Source: a virus
Strand: one strand, 5' to 3'
DNA length: 32,125 nucleotides
IMG/VR virus record: IMGVR_UViG_3300030109_005430
Coordinates: 1 to 32,125 of that record
The notes under the pieces were generated by a model, which was not told the DNA's origin, searched no databases, and saw nothing but the letters and a program-made list of their open reading frames with translations. Made by a program: the position numbers and the translations under genes. Shown piece by piece: positions 2 to 30,544 of this stretch (the first letter of the stretch is position 1; the number at the start of each line of letters is the position of its first letter).

Positions 2-613
2 TTAAACTTTTTTCAATTTATTTTTCAATTGTAAAATATAACCATCTATTTTTTGAGCATCACTATCATCATCCGACAATTTTTCTCTTCTGATTATTAA
101 CTTACCTAATGCCCTTTGTATTTGTAATTTAGACAATCCTTTCATCGACCTTCTATAATACAAAAGAGCTAATGCTTCATCCTCTGCTTCTGCTCCACGA
201 ACACCTGCAACTGCAGTTATGTATTCCGTTTCATATACTACAGCATCCGCTACACTCTCAATTTCATTCCATACAGTATTTTCCCACATAGCATCTAAGT
301 CTAAATCTTCAAGTGGTTCAGACAATCTTTTTTCTTTTTCTAATCTTTCTTGTTCTTGTTGTTTTTTTCTACGGGCAGCAAATTCGGCATCATAGTATGT
401 AGTTGATAGAGAATCACATTCGCTTAACCACGCACCATAATTTTTCCAATTAGGTGAACCATTAGAATCTCTGTATTCGGTATCATCACACTCTGTTCCC
501 ATAAATGAAGATGTTTTAAAATCAGATACCCTATTTGTATCTTGACTATAACTTAATTGGATATTCAGACAAATAAAAAGTATTAGGGTTGTATTCGAAA
601 TACCAAATCTCAT
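2..613 (-). CDS. Secreted protein of unknown function, last gene of the pilin operon
   Basis: This 203-residue protein begins with a convincing signal peptide: a hydrophobic core at residues 8-17 ending in SYSQ near residue 24. It should therefore be exported. The mature part has two cysteines near residues 42 and 67, a strongly charged Lys/Glu/Arg/Gln stretch (about 82-100, likely helical) and a helical C-terminus. I recognise no family. The start is the ATG at 613, preceded by AGGAGA about 7 nt upstream. This puts the first 68 nt inside the 3' end of the pilin-like gene at 546-941, in another frame. The overlap is unusually long for this genome, but signal peptide and ribosome site together support it. 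As the fifth gene after a putative promoter near 2550 it probably works with the pilin-like proteins. It ends at the window edge. Confidence 0.75.
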   Translation of the reverse strand: MRFGISNTTLILFICLNIQLSYSQDTNRVSDFKTSSFMGTECDDTEYRDSNGSPNWKNYGAWLSECDSLSTTYYDAEFAARRKKQQEQERLEKEKRLSEPLEDLDLDAMWENTVWNEIESVADAVVYETEYITAVAGVRGAEAEDEALALLYYRRSMKGLSKLQIQRALGKLIIRREKLSDDDSDAQKIDGYILQLKNKLKKV

Positions 614-941
614 TATTCATTCTCCTATGATATAGTTTTGTTCCATCAAACTGCCACTCATTATCTTCATCAGGTATTCCCAAATCAAGAGTGACTATTA
701 CACCTCTAGTTCTACCTAATACAGATAGTGGATGTTCAGGCCAAACATCGGTGTCTGTTAATTCTTTTTGAATATCAGCATACAATTCTAACTCTTCCCA
801 CAATCGATAAGCAAATTGTTTTTCTGCTTTTAATTCTTCTAATTCAATTCTTTTTTCAAACCTTGGAATAGCTACAGCACTTAGTATTCCAATCAATAAA
901 ATCACTACTACAAGTTCGAATAAAGTGTAGCCTTTATTCAC
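546..941 (-). CDS. Type IV pilin/pseudopilin-like protein (minor pilin 1)
   Basis: A 131-residue prepilin-like protein. It has a short basic leader ending in Gly4, then YTLFELVVVILLIGILSAVA and IP, which is the class III methylation/N-terminal helix motif with Glu at +5 after the predicted cleavage site. The C-terminal half is soluble and shares landmarks with the 1399-1830 product (a WPxHP motif, then W-x-F, an HRR/HQR segment and W-x-[FY]), so the two look like paralogues. The start is GTG at 941, overlapping the TAG stop of the upstream gene by one base, with GGAGA 6 nt before it. The family assembles in the inner membrane into type IV pili or type II secretion pseudopili. Cleavage needs a prepilin peptidase, not seen here. 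The pilin fold call is strong; pilus versus pseudopilus is not resolved. Confidence 0.88.
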   Translation of the reverse strand: MNKGYTLFELVVVILLIGILSAVAIPRFEKRIELEELKAEKQFAYRLWEELELYADIQKELTDTDVWPEHPLSVLGRTRGVIVTLDLGIPDEDNEWQFDGTKLYHRRMNNEIWYFEYNPNTFYLSEYPIKL

Positions 942-1387
942 TAGATTTCTCCGATTATATATTCCTCATATGATGGACTATCTTCGTCCACATCACTAAT
1001 AATAAATAGTTTAGTTATATATCCTTGTTCGGATGTATCTGACTCTATTTCATATTTAAATGGATTTTGATTGGAATTAAATGGTAAATTTCCACTAAAC
1101 AAATGATTAGGAGTTCTACCATCAGATAATACTGTTTGACGATATTCCCCATCTAATAAATTATTTTCTGGCTCTATAGGAAGTTGTGGATTACCTTTCA
1201 TATGTGTCTCTTGATAATATCTTAAAAATGTATCTTTTATAATTGACATATTAGCAAGATTAATTTGTCGTTGGGTATCCATAGTCACATTACTAAAAGT
1301 GGGAATAGCAAAAGACATCACTATTCCCACCAAAGCAATACTAACTACTAACTCTGCCAATGTGAAACCATCAGTTGAGTTTCTCAT
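941..1387 (-). CDS. Type IV pilin/pseudopilin-like protein (minor pilin 2)
   Basis: A 148-residue protein with an 8-residue leader ending in Gly, then FTLAELVVSIALVGIVMSFA and IP: the prepilin cleavage motif with conserved Glu+5 and the hydrophobic assembly helix. The rest is soluble, with no Cys pair like the disulfide loop of major pilins. The segment after the helix (MSIIKDTFLRYYQ) fits the extended alpha-1 of GspG/GspH-like pseudopilins. The ATG at 1387 is preceded by GGGAGA about 7 nt upstream and follows the 1399-1830 gene by 11 nt. Its stop overlaps the GTG start of the next pilin-like gene, suggesting translational coupling and a fixed stoichiometry. A role as a minor or tip pilin is inference. 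Confidence 0.88.
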   Translation of the reverse strand: MRNSTDGFTLAELVVSIALVGIVMSFAIPTFSNVTMDTQRQINLANMSIIKDTFLRYYQETHMKGNPQLPIEPENNLLDGEYRQTVLSDGRTPNHLFSGNLPFNSNQNPFKYEIESDTSEQGYITKLFIISDVDEDSPSYEEYIIGEI

Positions 1388-1398
1388 TGGTATCTCCC

Positions 1399-1830
1399 TT
1401 AGTCTACGATAGCTTCTCTAGCACCAATTGAACCAACAGCAGCATTATCGCCCGATTGAACACCTTTGTCGTATGCCCAAGCATGACGAGTGTTATCTTT
1501 TCGTTGGTGTGTGATTTTATTGGTTGTGGTATTGAATGTCCACTCACCATCGGTATCAGCGTTATCAACATCTGTTGAATCGTATCCTACTGGTACTTGG
1601 TCTAAAGCATCAAAAGGATGGGTTGGCCAACTCTTTCTACCATTATCAAGAAGTTGTTCAACAGCGTAGTTTTCCAAACCAGCCTTAACAGAAGATATTA
1701 TTGCATCTTCTGCAGCCTGTTCTGCTTTATCTACTACACCAACATATCTTGGTATAGCTACTGCTGCAAGAATTCCTAAAATGATAGTAACCATTATTAG
1801 TTCTATTAATGTGAATCCTTTGTTGTTCAT
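1399..1830 (-). CDS. Type IV pilin/pseudopilin-like protein (GspG/PilA-type)
   Basis: A 143-residue protein with the most canonical prepilin signal of the set: MNNKG, then FTLIELIMVTIILGILAAVA and IPRY, giving Glu+5. An amphipathic alpha-1 continuation (about residues 30-60) leads to a globular domain with WPTHP, a DGEW-F-type strand and an HQRKDN segment. The length suits GspG- or minor-pilin-like proteins; no calcium-site or disulfide signature could be assigned. A good ribosome site (GGAGA, 6 nt spacing) precedes the ATG at 1830. It lies second in an operon of four pilin-like genes and resembles the 546-941 product in its globular part. It would be an inner-membrane pilus or pseudopilus subunit. 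The fold is near certain; the assembled structure is unknown. Confidence 0.92.
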   Translation of the reverse strand: MNNKGFTLIELIMVTIILGILAAVAIPRYVGVVDKAEQAAEDAIISSVKAGLENYAVEQLLDNGRKSWPTHPFDALDQVPVGYDSTDVDNADTDGEWTFNTTTNKITHQRKDNTRHAWAYDKGVQSGDNAAVGSIGAREAIVD

Positions 1831-1860: not shown

Positions 1861-2499
1861 TTAAGGTTGTAATTTTTTGTTGAAGTTCTTTGGACTTTCC
1901 AAATCTGCAATGTAAAGAATTGGTGCATAGGATTGTTGTCCACTTCCACCACCAGCAATTACTGTGTAGATGTAGTGACCATCCTGGAAAGGTGATTTGA
2001 TAGCATTACCACCAAACTCATTCAAGAATTCTTCAGCACCAGCTGAAACATCAAATGAACCATCACCATCATCATCTTCTGATACATTTACAGAAGAACC
2101 TTGAGGTGCTGGTGACTCTAAATTTGCAGTTCCAAACACAGAAGCCCATTGTGATGCTTCTTCACTTTCATAAGTTTCGAATACATCGATACTTGAGAGA
2201 AGTAAATCTTCGTCAGCATATCCACCGTTATTATCAGGTACACTTTCATTATACTTTACCTGTCCTGGAAAACGTCCACGACCTTCTGATGTTACTTTAG
2301 CGTTATAAAAATTGTTAGCTGATTTCATTATCTTATCGATATCAGCAAGTGTTTTCTTTTCCTTAGCACCTTCTCCAACACCGGAGAATTTAGGTGCAGC
2401 AGTAGTAGCAAGTGTAGCCATCATAGCAGTTGTTACTGCAAATTCAGCGAGTGACTGACCACTACGGCCTTTTAGTTTTTTTCTTAGTGATTTGAACAT
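1861..2499 (-). CDS. Divergent prepilin-like protein, first gene of pilin operon
   Basis: A 212-residue protein with a longer basic leader (MFKSLRKKLKGRSG) followed by QSLAEFAVTTAMMATLATTA and APKF. If cleaved after Gly14, a Glu sits at +5 as in the other three pilins, but the first residues resemble Flp/TadE-type prepilins (GQSLAEFA) more than FTLIE pilins. The soluble part is rich in Asp, Ser and Gly and includes an EDDDGDGSFD segment (about residues 141-150) that looks like a calcium-binding loop. Being first and longest, with the strongest ribosome site (AAGGAG about 7 nt before the ATG at 2499), it may be the major subunit; this is inference. A putative promoter and an upstream terminator separate it from the preceding genes. 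Confidence 0.8.
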   Translation of the reverse strand: MFKSLRKKLKGRSGQSLAEFAVTTAMMATLATTAAPKFSGVGEGAKEKKTLADIDKIMKSANNFYNAKVTSEGRGRFPGQVKYNESVPDNNGGYADEDLLLSSIDVFETYESEEASQWASVFGTANLESPAPQGSSVNVSEDDDGDGSFDVSAGAEEFLNEFGGNAIKSPFQDGHYIYTVIAGGGSGQQSYAPILYIADLESPKNFNKKLQP

Positions 2500-2681: not shown

Positions 2682-2945
2682 TCAATAAATTACAAATGGT
2701 AATCTTGTTGTAACAAATTCCCAACAAATACCCCCAATGAATGCAAATGCACCACCCAATACAGTAGCAAGGGCATCTTTATTACTCCACCCACTACCAA
2801 GATACTTATCATATACCTCTTTACCAAATGCTAAAATACCTAACACTATCCAAGACTCTGTTATGGCAAACCCAGCGGCTCCAGCCATAAAATGAAGAAA
2901 CTTATCAGTTCCCCATTGTAACATAAAATCATTGAATTTACTCAT
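2682..2945 (-). CDS. Small membrane protein, DUF2279/VanZ-like layout
   Basis: This 87-residue protein has two or three hydrophobic segments (about residues 17-40, 58-75 and the C-terminus). Its motif set is WGTDKFLHFMAG, GKEVYDKYLG, then WSNKDALATVLGG. A D-x-x-x-H near the start, a GKE-x-x-D and a later K-D with a small-residue helix resemble the YfiM/DUF2279 family and, more loosely, VanZ-like membrane proteins. Its function is not known to me. The gene starts with ATG at 2945, overlapping the TAA of the lipoprotein gene by one base, with AAGGAG upstream. It is the last gene before a strong terminator. The 6127-6417 product has a similar layout, so the cassette may carry two distant relatives. 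A lysis role is possible but unsupported. Confidence 0.72.
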   Translation of the reverse strand: MSKFNDFMLQWGTDKFLHFMAGAAGFAITESWIVLGILAFGKEVYDKYLGSGWSNKDALATVLGGAFAFIGGICWEFVTTRLPFVIY

Positions 2946-3523
2946 TAATATACTCCTTGATAAAATGTAGCTTCTGGATTTGTACCCACTTCTAAGTTAT
3001 CAAAAATAATTACACCATGTTGCATTTCATTTCTATAAGGGTTGAAGAAGTATCCATCAGCTATACCACTTACTAAACCATCTTCATACTTACTAATTGT
3101 CGCTTGTGCAAATTCTGTGAAATCAGATAGTCCTACAATCTCTAATGTGATTCTACCACTTGTAGCTTCAAGTAAATCAGGTCTAAGTGAATCAACTGCA
3201 GTACCACCTATGTATAGTTTCTCATCTATTGGTTGTCCATTATCTGCTCCATTATTATCATACATAATCAAAGCGTAATGTTCTTTTTCAGGTGTAACTC
3301 TACCATCTTCTCTTTGAAAGTGTAATACGAATATCTTTTTTATAGAACCATCTTCTTGTACTTCTGATGCTCCATATGTTGTAATACTTTCGTAATATTC
3401 TCGTGCAATAATCTCTGCACCATTTACAATCATTTGAATATTTTCTACTAATGGTTCTTCTACTCTGTCATCTTCACAACTAAGTGAAAATAACAATAAG
3501 GACAGTAAAAGTATTTTTTTCAT
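2945..3523 (-). CDS. Lipoprotein of unknown function
   Basis: A 192-residue protein with a lipoprotein signal peptide: MKK, a leucine-rich core and the lipobox LFSLSC, with the acylated Cys at residue 16 followed by Glu-Asp-Asp. The mature domain is mostly beta-strand by appearance (alternating hydrophobics such as IKKIFVLHFQ and GRITLEIVGL) and reaches the C-terminus without repeats. Short lipoproteins of this style, with SCEDD or SCED after the lipobox, are common in FCB-group bacteria, which bears on the host. It has a clear AGGAGA site before the ATG at 3523 and is coupled by TAATG to the small membrane protein gene downstream. A phage lipoprotein could act in superinfection exclusion or cell-surface change; the sequence does not decide. 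Confidence 0.8.
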   Translation of the reverse strand: MKKILLLSLLLFSLSCEDDRVEEPLVENIQMIVNGAEIIAREYYESITTYGASEVQEDGSIKKIFVLHFQREDGRVTPEKEHYALIMYDNNGADNGQPIDEKLYIGGTAVDSLRPDLLEATSGRITLEIVGLSDFTEFAQATISKYEDGLVSGIADGYFFNPYRNEMQHGVIIFDNLEVGTNPEATFYQGVY

Positions 3524-3532
3524 TTTTTTCTC

Positions 3533-3907
3533 CTAAAATACATCTTCTGATAAAATATCATCTATGGCACCTTTTATATCTTTATTACTAATATCTAATT
3601 CACCATCCATATCAGCCTTCCAAGTTTCTTTCTTAGAACCATCATAGAATAATGCCATTGATGGAAAGTTTCTAAATCTTAATTTCTTTACAACCTTTGG
3701 AGCATCTTCACTCTTGACTCTAATTATTTTACAATCTTGATATCCACTAACACCCTTCAGTATCTTTTCATCTACATCTTGTTCTTGCCATTCAGATGAA
3801 AAGATAGCAACTACTATTCCACCATTGATTTCTGATTTAAAGTTCTTGTCATTTACTTGTGAAAATGCAACAGACAGGAATAGTAATAATGTTAATATGT
3901 TTTTCAT
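3533..3907 (-). CDS. Secreted thioredoxin-fold protein lacking the CXXC motif
   Basis: This 124-residue protein has an N-terminal signal peptide (core about residues 4-14, ending AFSQ) followed by a thioredoxin-like domain. Visible landmarks are the first core strand (IVVAIFSSEW), a helix, a second strand (KIIRVKSED), and the cis-proline segment NFPSMALFYDG, matching the usual GIPTLLLFKNG. Where thioredoxins have W-C-x-x-C, this protein reads W40-Q-E-Q-D, so both catalytic cysteines are gone and normal disulfide exchange should be impossible. The length fits a bare thioredoxin domain plus signal. It lies 9 nt downstream of the MshEN-like gene with its own TAGGAG site. It may be a periplasmic binding or chaperone-like protein; fold confidence is moderate to good. 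Confidence 0.78.
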   Translation of the reverse strand: MKNILTLLLFLSVAFSQVNDKNFKSEINGGIVVAIFSSEWQEQDVDEKILKGVSGYQDCKIIRVKSEDAPKVVKKLRFRNFPSMALFYDGSKKETWKADMDGELDISNKDIKGAIDDILSEDVF

Positions 3908-3916
3908 AACAAACTC

Positions 3917-4558
3917 CTATTTATCCCTTTTCCTTCGTTCAAGGTCTTTGATATCTTTTTGTAATTCTTTAATGGTTTCTTCATACTCATCCAATACATC
4001 ATATACAGCATCCATATCTTCTTGTAGACCTCCAACTTGGTTTTTATATTGTTCATATGACCGTGGCCAGTTGTGACCATCAGGTTTGGATGGATACTCA
4101 TCCGTAAAAATCTTTTCTATATCTATCTTTGGTAGTTCTTTTGCCTCTTCAATCTCTCCTTGTAGTGTGTACCACATACCAATCAATGATGCCAAACCTG
4201 TTCCAGCTGCTATCATTGTTTGAACAGATAATGTAAATTTTGTATCTAAAACTTTATCTTCACTTAATTCTATTGGTTCTTTCTTTTTTGGTTTTGATTT
4301 TTCTTTTGGTTTTTCTTTTATCGGTGCGGGCTCAGGATGTATCTTTTCTGATTTTTCCTCGTGTTTCTCTGTGTCTGAATCGTGATTTAATAATGCGTTA
4401 GTGATGTCATCAAAATCGCAAAACCCTTGATCTACAAGTATTTCACCGAGAGTGCGTTTGTCACCCTTAACTTGAACCTGTAAGGCTTTGTTAAGTTGTC
4501 TTTTGGTAATGATGTCTTCATCACACAACAACTTACCGATTTTGATGTCACCATTCAT
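3917..4558 (-). CDS. MshEN/GspE-N-like domain, membrane helix and coiled coil
   Basis: The N-terminal 57 residues contain two tandem copies of the MshEN pattern: IGKLLCDEDIITKRQLNKAL, then VQ, and TLGEILVDQGFCDFDDITNA, then LL. In secretion and pilus ATPases (GspE, PilB, MshE) this domain lies at the N-terminus, and in MshE it binds cyclic di-GMP. Here no ATPase follows. Instead there is a Lys/Glu/Pro-rich linker (about 60-105), one membrane helix (about 111-131) and a C-terminal coiled coil (about 165-213). The start at 4558 directly follows the TAA of the lysine-rich protein gene without a clear ribosome site, so translation is probably coupled. A role in sensing c-di-GMP or docking to host pilus/type II secretion parts is an inference supported by the nearby pilin-like genes. 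Confidence 0.82.
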   Translation of the reverse strand: MNGDIKIGKLLCDEDIITKRQLNKALQVQVKGDKRTLGEILVDQGFCDFDDITNALLNHDSDTEKHEEKSEKIHPEPAPIKEKPKEKSKPKKKEPIELSEDKVLDTKFTLSVQTMIAAGTGLASLIGMWYTLQGEIEEAKELPKIDIEKIFTDEYPSKPDGHNWPRSYEQYKNQVGGLQEDMDAVYDVLDEYEETIKELQKDIKDLERRKRDK

Positions 4559-4753
4559 TTACTTTGAGCCAAAGATTTTAGAAAAGAAACCCTTTTTGGC
4601 TTTCTTACCTTTTTGGCCAAGCTTTTTGCCTTTCTTCTTTTTCTTCTTTTTGATTTCTTCCATACCAGCCATGTTCATATCTGAAGCATTAGCGATTGGA
4701 ACAACACCAAAAAAAATTACAGCAGAAAGCATTAGTTTTAGCATGTTTTTCAT
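4559..4753 (-). CDS. Small secreted lysine-rich protein
   Basis: A 64-residue protein with a clear Sec signal peptide (core about residues 8-20, likely cut after ANA at about 24). The mature peptide of about 40 residues starts with a Met-rich patch (SDMNMAGMEE), runs through seven consecutive lysines and several GKK repeats, and ends in an aromatic/basic tail (GFFSKIFGSK). It is extremely basic and too short for a known fold. Such a peptide could bind acidic envelope polymers, peptidoglycan, LPS or DNA outside the cytoplasm; none is demonstrated. A strong AGGAGA site precedes the ATG at 4753, and its stop abuts the start of the MshEN-like gene. The lysine run sits on an A-rich tract where sequencing indels are possible. 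Confidence 0.75.
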   Translation of the reverse strand: MKNMLKLMLSAVIFFGVVPIANASDMNMAGMEEIKKKKKKKGKKLGQKGKKAKKGFFSKIFGSK

Positions 4754-4762
4754 TGTGTTCTC

Positions 4763-6052
4763 CTAGTTTAAGAATTGATAATTTAAACCTAACTTAATAT
4801 CATAAGCTGGTCTTTCCCAATAATACAAATATCTTCCCTCTGTAAAGATTCCTAGATTTTCTTTTATCTTGACACCGAGAATAGCTCCTATGTCATAATC
4901 ATTCCAATCCATCCACATTGGGTCCATGTACATAAATTTATGTGGTTCTTTACCTTCATCCAAATGGTCACCATAATGTGTTGCATTATGATAAGCATGT
5001 TGTGAATGTCCGTAATGTACTGGCATCCAATTTCCCCAAGCGTGTAACCACCAATTTTGGTCATAGTGATACCAATCCACACCCACAACTAAAGATGTTT
5101 CGCCTTGATATCCTAAACCTTGTTTTTTATCTTGAATATAATTTTCTAACATTCTTGGAAAGTGATATATAAAATATTCTCTGTCTGTGTAAGCAAATAT
5201 ACGACCATCAGCATCTCTCCATAACCAATCATGTCCCCAATATTCCCCACCTTCATTCCAAAAAGGACCATCACCTTCTATCGGTATAAGGTCACCTGTT
5301 ATAGGATCTAATTCATAAAGTTCTTGATGTATCCAATTTCCATCTTCATCTTGCATTGTCGGGTCAAACCACATATTATCATCTATACCAAATGCTTTTT
5401 CTGCAAACTGCCACCATTGACCTTTGTACCAAGTTGTATCTAGTACCATAGCATCAAATCCATATACAGGATGTTGTCTATGTTTAAATCCAACAGAGAA
5501 ATGTAATTTGTTTCCCAATGCTTCAGGTGTAAGATGAACTCTAATATCACCTTGTCCATAAGCAATATCTTCAAGACCTAACTCTGTCCATCCAACTTTT
5601 GCCATAACCCAATCACCAATGTATCTTACCCAATATTCTTGGTTAAGATATTCATTACCCCATTGACGACCTTGTGACCACCTGACTAAATATTCCCAAC
5701 CTTTTACAGGACCAAATGTCGCACTTTCATTTGCGTTCTGTTCTGAGCCATCATACCAAGTTCCACCTTTACCAGCAGACTTAACACCTCGTTTGGGTTC
5801 GTATTGAAATCTACCAATCTTACGAAGTCCAAATGATGTTTGAAAATCAGGTTTTAATTCTCTTTCAGTTCGTTCTACTTCTAAAGCACCTGTAGATAAA
5901 CCACCAATAATAGCAAATCTATCATCTTGATATCTTGGTGCATTTAAACTAAAACTACTATATGCAGTTGAATACTTAAAAAAGTTAGTAAAAAATTGTT
6001 GACCAAACAAAGATGAGGATAATAATACCCCTAATATAATTTTCTTTAACAT
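4763..6052 (-). CDS. Probable outer-membrane beta-barrel protein
   Basis: A 429-residue protein with a signal peptide (MLKKIILGVLLSSSLFGQ), then a sequence with alternating hydrophobic/polar strands, very rich in Trp, Tyr, Gly and His. It ends in strands such as GRYLYYWER and YDIKLGLNYQF, with a near-C-terminal Phe (QFLN) as in many outer-membrane barrels. Between roughly 220 and 300 it has a large Asp/Trp-rich insertion that could be an extracellular loop. A His-rich patch (HYGHSQHAYHNATHYGDH, about 350-370) could bind metal. I recognise no specific porin family. The signal-peptide ending FGQ resembles FCB-group exports. It has a good GGGAGA ribosome site and sits just after the cysteine-rich mini-gene. 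A phage barrel could alter host permeability or mask a receptor. Confidence 0.75.
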   Translation of the reverse strand: MLKKIILGVLLSSSLFGQQFFTNFFKYSTAYSSFSLNAPRYQDDRFAIIGGLSTGALEVERTERELKPDFQTSFGLRKIGRFQYEPKRGVKSAGKGGTWYDGSEQNANESATFGPVKGWEYLVRWSQGRQWGNEYLNQEYWVRYIGDWVMAKVGWTELGLEDIAYGQGDIRVHLTPEALGNKLHFSVGFKHRQHPVYGFDAMVLDTTWYKGQWWQFAEKAFGIDDNMWFDPTMQDEDGNWIHQELYELDPITGDLIPIEGDGPFWNEGGEYWGHDWLWRDADGRIFAYTDREYFIYHFPRMLENYIQDKKQGLGYQGETSLVVGVDWYHYDQNWWLHAWGNWMPVHYGHSQHAYHNATHYGDHLDEGKEPHKFMYMDPMWMDWNDYDIGAILGVKIKENLGIFTEGRYLYYWERPAYDIKLGLNYQFLN

Positions 6053-6126: not shown

Positions 6127-6417
6127 CTACCAGACCATCCACCATGCAGCACCAACTTCTACTATGATGTCAGCTGCGGTGTTATATGCCCATTTCTTTT
6201 TACTACCATAGACTCGCCAATCTTCTATGATATATTCAAATATTTCCCATGCAATTCCAATTATAAGTACCCATAAGACTGCCCATAAATCAGACGAACC
6301 CAACCATTGTGCTATCTTTGCAATAGCTAAACCAGCTGCTATATGATAAGATGTCCAATGGTCAAGTTGACCAGATGATAATTGCCAATTTACAAATTTA
6401 GTTAGTGGACTATTCAT
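6127..6417 (-). CDS. Small membrane protein, VanZ-like layout
   Basis: A 96-residue protein with three hydrophobic helices (about 24-40, 43-64 and 78-96). Polar landmarks are DHWTSYHIAAG at the first helix, WEIFEYIIEDW after the second and NTAADIIVEVG in the third. The H-x-x-x-G, E-x-x-E and D-x-x-x-[DE]-x-G pattern resembles VanZ-like/DUF2238-type membrane proteins and, in outline, the 2682-2945 product. No catalytic role is assigned. It starts at ATG 6417 with TAGGAG upstream and is the first gene after the structural tail genes, behind an inverted repeat. Three helices and this length also suit a holin, but the conserved charges inside the helices argue for something else. Confidence 0.68.
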   Translation of the reverse strand: MNSPLTKFVNWQLSSGQLDHWTSYHIAAGLAIAKIAQWLGSSDLWAVLWVLIIGIAWEIFEYIIEDWRVYGSKKKWAYNTAADIIVEVGAAWWMVW

Positions 6418-29318: not shown

Positions 29319-29972
29319 TTATTTTTGAGAACTTGAAACTAAATTGTTAGAAACTTGTTCACTTAAAAGTGATTGTATTGTGAAGTATAAAGAGGGATTT
29401 CGTTTCAATAAATCCTTAAAATCTTTTTGTGGCCAGACTAAACACTCTGTGTCGTGTGTTACTTTACAAGTGGCAGTTGCTGGTTTCTCTGTAAGAAAAG
29501 ACATCTCCCCTACAAACTGACCATCTTTTAGCTCAGCTACTTTGTTATCATTAACTAAAATATCAACCATACCATTGTAAATTAAAATTAAATCATTTAC
29601 AGGTTTACCTTGTTGAATAATTGGTAATGGTGATTTAAATTTTTTCCATTGTGCAATCTTAGTAATTTTTAAAAACTCTACTGGTGATAAACCACGAAAC
29701 ATTGTCTCGTATAATTCTTTTTCTTTTGTTGACATCTTAACAGGTCTCTTCTCGTATATGATAACTGATATGTGATATAAATTTACAACTACAAAAACAA
29801 TATTCCAACCTATTGGAAGCCACATAGGTTCTATTGGAATGTAAAAATTATAAAGAACAGAGAAGAGACTAGCTAGTATAGACAAGATTCTAAGATACAG
29901 TATGTCCTTTACCAAAAAAGAAAAGGCAATAAGACCAAATGCTAAATGACCAGCTATAGTTGCTATGTTCAT
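29319..29972 (-). CDS. Popeye-like membrane protein with cNMP-binding fold
   Basis: A 217-residue protein with three membrane helices (about 5-22, 25-44 and 52-72), then a cyclic-nucleotide-binding-type beta roll (about 92-205). Landmarks are LYETMFRGLSPVEFLKI, the IIQQGKPVNDLILIYNGMVD strand pair and the cassette GEMSFLTEKPATATCKV. Three helices plus one such domain is the Popeye (POPDC-like) plan. In the phosphate-binding cassette G155-E156 are kept, but the phosphate-contacting arginine of CAP/PKA-type sites is replaced by Ala165, so classical cAMP/cGMP binding is doubtful. The ATG at 29972 overlaps the stop of the transglycosylase gene (ATGA). I know of no standard T4-like counterpart. 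It probably acts in the inner membrane during infection. Confidence 0.8.
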   Translation of the reverse strand: MNIATIAGHLAFGLIAFSFLVKDILYLRILSILASLFSVLYNFYIPIEPMWLPIGWNIVFVVVNLYHISVIIYEKRPVKMSTKEKELYETMFRGLSPVEFLKITKIAQWKKFKSPLPIIQQGKPVNDLILIYNGMVDILVNDNKVAELKDGQFVGEMSFLTEKPATATCKVTHDTECLVWPQKDFKDLLKRNPSLYFTIQSLLSEQVSNNLVSSSQK

Positions 29973-30544
29973 TTTAAATTATTCTGAACCCGTTTGACAT
30001 AAAAGTTGTTACTAATATAATTATCAGAATACTTTTTGGTAGCAGTAGGACCGTGACTATATGCTGTAAGTGTAGATTCTAAATCATCAAAATGTTTATC
30101 TAATTTAGATAGATACTTTATCCCAACCGTAACATTTACATACGGGTCAAACAAGTCTTGTTTAGGTGTGTCAAATTCTGATTTTGCTGTAGATGGTAAT
30201 ATTTGCATTAAACCTATTGCCCCACTTGTGGAGACAGCTTTGTGATTCCAATCTGATTCAGTTTGTATAACGGCCTTAACCATTTCATAATCAACCCCAT
30301 ACTCCCAACAGAGAGCTTCTATATAAATAAGTATGTGTTTGAGTTTAGATTTATTCAAAGAAGATTTGATTTCTTTTGCTTGAATAGCATAATCACTTGG
30401 ATTAAATGGTACATTGACCATACGAACAACTGTTTCAGTTTTTGTTTGTATTGGTATATCAGGCTCTGTTATTTCTATATAAGCCATAACAGACACAGAT
30501 GTGGTTAATACACCTAATAGGTAGTATAGTTTATTTACTGACAT
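29969..30544 (-). CDS. Lytic transglycosylase (SLT domain) with N-terminal anchor
   Basis: A 191-residue protein. An N-terminal hydrophobic segment (about residues 6-22) is a signal anchor or signal peptide, followed by a linker and an SLT/Slt70-type domain (about 70-190). The catalytic glutamate is E96 in VIQTESDWNHKAVSTSGAIG, with LMQILPSTA next, and the ...AYSHGP... and Y-V-x-x-V segments also match. The enzyme cleaves peptidoglycan between MurNAc and GlcNAc with formation of an anhydro product. Export to the periplasm would allow wall opening for late lysis or, given the pilin genes, local wall remodelling for an envelope machine. The spike lacks lysozyme, so this could also be the phage's main muralytic activity. 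Start ATG 30544 has AAAGGA upstream. Confidence 0.9.
   Translation of the reverse strand: MSVNKLYYLLGVLTTSVSVMAYIEITEPDIPIQTKTETVVRMVNVPFNPSDYAIQAKEIKSSLNKSKLKHILIYIEALCWEYGVDYEMVKAVIQTESDWNHKAVSTSGAIGLMQILPSTAKSEFDTPKQDLFDPYVNVTVGIKYLSKLDKHFDDLESTLTAYSHGPTATKKYSDNYISNNFYVKRVQNNLK

Follow-up and report, generated by a model that had tools for sequence, protein, structure and literature searches.

The virus record IMGVR_UViG_3300030109_005430 of IMG/VR (32,125 bases, 31.7% GC), which was analyzed over its full length and is called the window in the following, carries contractile-tail baseplate genes, among them one for a gp6-like protein whose best deposited match is to the Microcystis phage Mel-JY01 (33%). 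On its minus strand, an open reading frame (ORF) at positions 3917..4558 encodes a protein of 213 amino acids (aa). Judged from the ORF, its conservation and the AlphaFold2 (AF2) model, this is predicted to be a bitopic inner-membrane protein composed of an MshEN head, a linker, a transmembrane (TM) helix and a periplasmic coiled coil. Used as a query against viral contigs, the protein yielded 54 loci, nearly all with an identity of 50-97% over the best segment. The ORF is real, and it is conserved in these 54 viral loci. An alignment-based scan of viral contigs revealed at least 554 stretches with relatives. None were found among 50,697 deposited phage records or in 84,980 prokaryotic genomes (GTDB pattern scan with the family alignment). 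The protein belongs to a large family from uncultured marine phages.

The head, an MshEN subdomain of the cyclic di-GMP (c-di-GMP) type, comprises residues 6-56 (4391..4543, minus strand) and was identified by the family NF053729, by matches to PDB sequences and by a fold match to 5htl. The binding unit of MshEN spans 53 residues and consists of two 24-residue motifs in tandem (PMC5013675). In the window protein, motif I is KIGKLLCDEDIITKRQLNKALQVQ and motif II is TLGEILVDQGFCDFDDITNALLNH, the latter extending to residue 59. The region reached 43.2 bits (E 2.6e-11) against NF053729 (c-di-GMP_motif, MshE-related; NCBIfam), for which the curated cut-off is 38 bits, and this family was above its cut-off in 50 of 50 related records. 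A phmmer search against PDB sequences matched PilF (E 1.2e-6), PilB (0.0025) and MshE 5htl (0.024). The Pfam family T2SSE_N/MshEN gave no match for the window protein, though NCBIfam and structure detect the domain.

In the AF2 model, which was built with 66 sequences, the head contains helices at residues 3-13, 19-30, 37-43 and 49-58 with a predicted local distance difference test (pLDDT) score of about 71-81. The modelled arrangement is a four-helix bundle of two helix-turn-helix motifs, the same tandem of 24-residue motifs and the same bundle as in the MshEN domain of Vibrio cholerae MshE (5htl; PMC5013675). The top eight Foldseek matches in the PDB were all MshE or PilF GSPII domains, and the head superimposed on 5htl with a root-mean-square deviation of 1.2 A over 50 columns (probability 1.00, Foldseek E 0.075). 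The binding half of MshEN is therefore present in the window protein. Unlike MshE, it is without the C-terminal MshEN subdomain and without the ATPase; a linker, a TM helix and a coiled coil are fused to the head instead. With a TM helix and coiled coil in place of the C-terminal T2SSE ATPase domain, it also differs from the assembly ATPases GspE and PilB.

These results bear out the first-pass annotation, made from the sequence alone, in its central description of an MshEN-type head on a membrane anchor with a coiled coil and without an ATPase, as well as in the fold it expected. Its two MshEN halves in residues 5-57 correspond to the two motifs of the binding unit, whereas the C-terminal subdomain has no counterpart, and the profile match it anticipated was obtained with NCBIfam and not with Pfam.

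Each motif of the binding unit has the consensus R1-L2-G3...G10...L17...L21..Q24 (PMC5013675). Compared to MshE, the phage head retains G3 in both motifs, Q24 in motif I and most of the core hydrophobic residues. In contrast, the R of motif I is a K and its turn Gly is an Asp, and in motif II of the window protein both side-chain contacts are substituted (R to T, Q to H). Among 66 aligned members of the family, G3 is invariant in both motifs and Q24 in motif I (66/66 each), the first position of motif I is a K in 54 and an R in 12, and 65 members have D at the turn Gly of this motif. In motif II, T, S, A or Q takes the place of R1 in 54 members, 12 have K or R there, and six keep Q24. Both motifs of the window protein fail the relaxed motif of PMC5013675; among 89 members, motif II passed in ten and motif I in none. 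A minority branch (L073, L074, L089, L091, L093 and others) is closer to the canonical site.

The GSPII-A domain of Thermus thermophilus PilF likewise folds as an MshEN domain and is altered at the same ligand positions, with Ser in place of the motif II Arg and residues other than Gln at the motif ends. It does not bind c-di-GMP, and binding was regained only with the Arg and both Gln restored, plus trimming (PMC12002112). The phage head differs from it in keeping the Q of motif I and in lacking the C-terminal subdomain that hinders binding by GSPII-A. In MshE, single changes at Arg9 or Gln32 caused a loss of at most about fivefold (PMC5013675). Canonical c-di-GMP sensing is doubtful in the clade of the window protein, because both motif II side-chain contacts are lost. 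Judged from these residues, it is uncertain whether the window protein binds c-di-GMP, and any binding is probably weak; the head of the near-canonical branch may bind the ligand. The failed ligand-residue motif would count against binding and leave the fold assignment unaffected. Of the c-di-GMP contacts that had been in question since the first reading, those of G3 in both motifs and of Q24 in motif I are thus kept and the R and Q of motif II are not, and the sensing function proposed at that time is doubtful for this member.

The head is followed by a charged, disordered linker (residues 60-110; 4229..4381, minus strand) with a pLDDT of about 42-49 in residues 61-110, and by a single membrane helix at about residues 112-134 (4157..4225, minus strand), which was placed by charge bias and the AF2 model. 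The model shows a long helix at 112-140 and a C-terminal helix at 168-212, which agrees with the charged linker, one membrane helix and coiled coil described earlier. On average, members of the family carry 3.7 K and R residues ahead of the membrane helix and 1.4 behind it. This charge pattern, together with the modelled helices, suggests an N-in, type II topology with a single TM helix. The predicted periplasmic part (3923..4138, minus strand; alignment and AF2) consists of a near-invariant EYPSKPDGHNWPRSYEQYK region and the C-terminal helix 168-212, and contains no cysteine; none of the 89 members has a cysteine in the TM/coiled-coil part. The mean pairwise identity is 66.7% for the head, 66.0% for the membrane part and 28.1% for the linker, whose mean identity among relatives is 28% over residues 60-95. 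Conservation of the head thus equals that of the TM part and far exceeds that of the linker, so that the head is under selection.

The C-terminal half also exists without the head. Used as the sole query of a scan, it found 334 relatives, 80 of which were kept, and 36 of these records encode a head-less short protein (112-127 aa in most) sharing the membrane helix and the EYPS...SYEQYK region. No MshEN match was found anywhere in these 36 records. A tree of the common half separates MshEN-bearing from MshEN-less proteins by one branch with a support of 100/99, and the near-canonical heads are placed closest to the MshEN-less side. As the tree is unrooted and comprises 106 columns, both a fusion and a loss of MshEN are possible. 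Because the anchor occurs both with and without a fused MshEN domain, the family offers a natural with/without comparison. Against deposited phages the C-terminal half had no relative, with matches only at E-values of 3 or more. Among phage families of unknown function with TM helix and coiled coil, phrog_6664 and phrog_1009 match over these two elements (best E 3e-6 and 2e-4, respectively), which may be partly coiled-coil bias; they are about 100 aa in length and lack the MshEN head.

The most constant neighbor is a gene for a predicted periplasmic thioredoxin-fold protein with a signal peptide and no CxxC (3533..3907, minus strand), identified by profile search with E-values down to 3e-19 against PDB thioredoxins/TXNDC5. 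It comes next after the MshEN gene in 87 of 89 loci and lies directly 3′ of the head-less form in 36 of 36, overlapping the head-less gene by four bases in the loci inspected. Secreted CxxC-less thioredoxin-fold proteins are the constant partner in two phage groups (window 3533-3907, L168:3336-3713, L190:3315-3707). A predicted outer-membrane (OM) beta-barrel is encoded at 4763..6052 (minus strand; AF2 predicted template modelling score, pTM, 0.62), with NanC, EspP, OmpG and FapF as best PDB folds, and is a neighbor in 85 of 89 MshEN-bearing loci. Neither the thioredoxin-like protein nor the OM barrel has a relative in deposited phages. A lipoprotein of the MshEN-bearing branch (2945..3523, minus strand; SLSCEDD, lipobox assigned by eye in the sequence) is a conserved neighbor in 72 loci of this branch, and lipoproteins also lie nearby in 17 of 36 MshEN-less loci. 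The gene immediately upstream, for a small secreted Lys-rich protein identified from its sequence (4559..4753, minus strand), is a variable neighbor.

In 25 MshEN-bearing loci a GTA_holin_3TM-like gene lies nearby; it scored 23.1 bits, below the Pfam cut-off of 24.8. The MshEN-less genes are located behind tail-fibre-like genes and are surrounded by small TM/coiled-coil ORFs in most loci and by some lipoproteins; a GH108 endolysin is located within 2.3 kb of the MshEN-less gene in three loci, and a weak holin match was found in this neighborhood. Overall, the gene neighborhood weakly resembles a lysis or envelope block. Proteins of phrog_3108 (unknown function) had been considered as endolysins near the MshEN-less forms and were not counted, as no match supported this.

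The constant pair consists of the anchor and the thioredoxin-fold protein, and the head and the OM proteins belong to one branch only, which argues for an envelope adaptor and not for part of a pilin cassette. The reading preferred here, tentatively and with somewhat less than even confidence, is that of a phage inner-membrane, trans-envelope adaptor with an MshEN docking or regulatory head, encoded in an envelope/lysis-type gene block. The C-terminal half belongs to a family of phage proteins with a single membrane helix and a predicted periplasmic coiled coil, whose gene directly precedes that of the CxxC-less thioredoxin-fold protein. Together with this protein and the OM partners, the periplasmic half would form a complex that spans the envelope and is made late in infection, and the MshEN head on its flexible linker would serve as the input of this complex from the cytoplasm. 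Binding of c-di-GMP by the head is possible in the near-canonical branch; in the branch of the window the head would more likely dock a host or phage protein, or bind a ligand weakly. If near-canonical heads do bind c-di-GMP, phages would sense at the envelope a signal of the host's lifestyle, and if the derived heads turned to docking, a nucleotide receptor would have become an adaptor.

Several points weigh against the adaptor. The envelope complex is inferred, and most genes of the block have no assigned function. The AF2 model of the whole protein is poor (pTM 0.27), and the Foldseek E-values of the head exceed 0.05, though the top matches are all MshEN domains. The unrooted tree leaves gain and loss of MshEN indistinguishable. 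The transglycosylase gene of the window (29969-30544) is 25 kb away, and because of this distance the link to lysis is weak for this member.

An extension of the adaptor reading takes in a second candidate receptor. At 29319..29972 (minus strand), the window encodes a Popeye-like membrane protein with a cyclic-nucleotide-binding domain (PF00027, 58.9 bits; POPDC1-3, 57.8 bits). In about 40 related loci its gene is found close to the MshEN/thioredoxin pair, often directly after the pair, and such cyclic nucleotide-binding membrane proteins occur in 20 of 37 large MshEN-bearing records. It is quite unlikely, though compatible with the data, that membrane-bound second-messenger receptors, the MshEN head and often the Popeye-like protein, let host nucleotide signalling gate the phage trans-envelope complex, for example in the timing of lysis or envelope remodelling, with the MshEN head acting as a c-di-GMP-type receptor in the near-canonical branch.

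Four pilin-like ORFs on the minus strand lie at the other side of the thioredoxin-fold gene, the closest 1,417 nt from the MshEN gene, as had been noted before (1.4 kb). Three are above the N_methyl cut-off: a GspG-like pilin at 1399..1830 (N_methyl 30.9 bits; TIGR01710 46.8 bits, below the cut-off of 88.85) and two type IV pilin-like proteins at 941..1387 (26.3 bits) and 546..941 (23.9 bits). The fourth, at 1861..2499, is pilin-like with the N-terminus GQSLAEF (GxSLxEF), has a cognate in L029 and matched no family. Pilin N-termini were detected in 31 of 88 MshEN-bearing records and in none of 36 MshEN-less records. For records of at least 25 kb the numbers are 29 of 62 vs 0 of 15 (Fisher p 6e-4), and pilins were present in 12 of 18 MshEN-bearing records of at least 60 kb. 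These comparisons ignore relatedness, and the records are fragments whose length differs between the two groups. Among MshEN-bearing records of at least 25 kb, pilins occur in 3 of 14 with K or R at the first position of motif II vs 26 of 48 with T, S, A or Q (p 0.04). Some genomes have the pilins within a few kb of the MshEN gene, others (L038, L041) at about 22 kb from it. No motor ATPase of type II secretion or type IV pili was above its family cut-off in 37 related records of at least 40 kb, in which T2SSE matches below the cut-off, in ORFs of about 400 aa, were weak; a prepilin peptidase above the cut-off was likewise absent from the 37 records. Therefore, any pilus would depend on the host. 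A single fixed cassette of MshEN protein and pilins was rejected, because the pilins do not keep a constant distance and some MshEN-bearing records have no detected pilins.

The co-occurrence of pilins holds at the level of genomes, with a mobile position and a low share in K/R members, and it speaks for the coupling that the first-pass annotation had proposed. In this explanation the protein would be a decoy or adaptor that couples the phage pilins to the type IV pilus or the type II secretion platform of the host. Its head would take the place of the host ATPase on PilM/GspL, and processing and assembly of the pilins would fall to the host machinery. The lack of a peptidase and motor ATPase above the cut-off in the 37 records fits such a need for host machinery, and the degeneration of the ligand site in the branch rich in pilins suits docking better than sensing. 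It is nevertheless rather unlikely, as the conserved partners are the thioredoxin-fold and OM proteins and not the pilins. In addition, the pilin position is mobile, MshEN-bearing records without detected pilins exist (in fragments, where absence is no proof), and the MshEN-less form is found only in records without pilins. A role in superinfection exclusion or receptor control is improbable. Here the head would bind and inhibit the host pilus or secretion motor or platform, and the OM barrel and lipoprotein, both linked to the MshEN gene, would mask receptors. Phage proteins are known to act at the pilus motor node, as Tip and Aqs1 bind PilB and Zip binds the PilZ-PilB complex (PMC11656802). 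These known examples are small proteins of temperate phages without such an anchor and without a demonstrated sequence relation; by analogy they make a motor-directed role plausible, and the phage protein described here would share with them a possible contact to this node.

The predicted topology of one N-in TM helix with a periplasmic coiled coil is shared with two-component i-spanins (Rz-like, phrog_739); lipoproteins, at most candidate o-spanins, lie nearby in both branches, and a GH108 endolysin lies near MshEN-less forms. A spanin-like lysis protein paired with a small lipoprotein, in which the MshEN head would gate or time lysis, is unlikely all the same. Weak Rz-like matches were obtained for 20 of 66 members (best E 0.025) and may stem from the coiled coil alone. 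In two-component spanins at least one cysteine is found in 507 of 528 cases (PMC6139136), whereas the phage protein lacks cysteines in its TM and periplasmic part, and an 86-aa candidate lipoprotein (L173:3673-3933) has the lipobox cysteine only. Further differences from i-spanins are the long cytoplasmic head and the constant partner, which has a thioredoxin fold and is no o-spanin. Finally, the head could be a decaying, now functionless leftover of a c-di-GMP sensor, since the motif II ligand contacts are lost in most members. This is highly improbable and was rejected on conservation: Gly3 in both motifs and Gln24 in motif I never vary among the 66 members, and the head is conserved like the membrane part. 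The trans-envelope adaptor remains the preferred reading.

In bacteria, MshEN domains normally serve to sense c-di-GMP on the motors of pili and secretion systems; the bacterial proteins that carry them include ATPases and glycosyltransferases, among others. No MshEN domain on a membrane anchor was found in deposited phage records, and a literature search of incomplete coverage turned up no published phage MshEN protein. One record of an uncultured faecal phage in INPHARED (MT835655.1:4840-4965, minus strand) has a 42-residue match to the MshEN head (40%, E 0.007), which is possibly an MshEN domain in another phage.

With respect to the host, scans of GTDB genomes with the family alignment and with the Popeye-like protein leave it unfixed. 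Popeye-like homologues with 43-49% were found in metagenome-assembled genomes of Bacteriovoracaceae, Chloroherpetonaceae and Opitutales. The FCB group is hinted at, without proof, by signal peptides ending in FSQ/FGQ and by CEDD lipoproteins.

The Popeye-like phage proteins, in the window and in A3 relatives (e.g. L038:11079-11732), combine an N-terminal membrane region with a cyclic nucleotide-binding domain and have no relative in deposited phages. The Arg of the phosphate cassette is an Ala in them (PATA, invariant A165), and Arg is also missing at this position in the bacterial Popeye-like homologues looked at. In the window, the gene overlaps by 4 nt with that of an SLT transglycosylase with an N-terminal hydrophobic segment (29969-30544, minus strand), which was not found in the related loci compared.

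The phrog_3108 proteins (L202:9984-10601, L173:5509-5994, L206:4571-5059) have no PDB sequence match and occupy a lysozyme-like position behind small membrane genes. Small multi-helix membrane proteins are encoded at 6127-6417 and 2682-2945 of the window (minus strand), with weak matches only (Heliorhodopsin, E 0.0017, below the cut-off; DUF2279 and Phage_holin_10, above 0.05). Near the OM-barrel gene, a short membrane protein (fam18; 16 loci, e.g. L091:6817-7224 and L045:9938-10279) weakly resembles the MscS beta-domain (PF00924, E 0.04).
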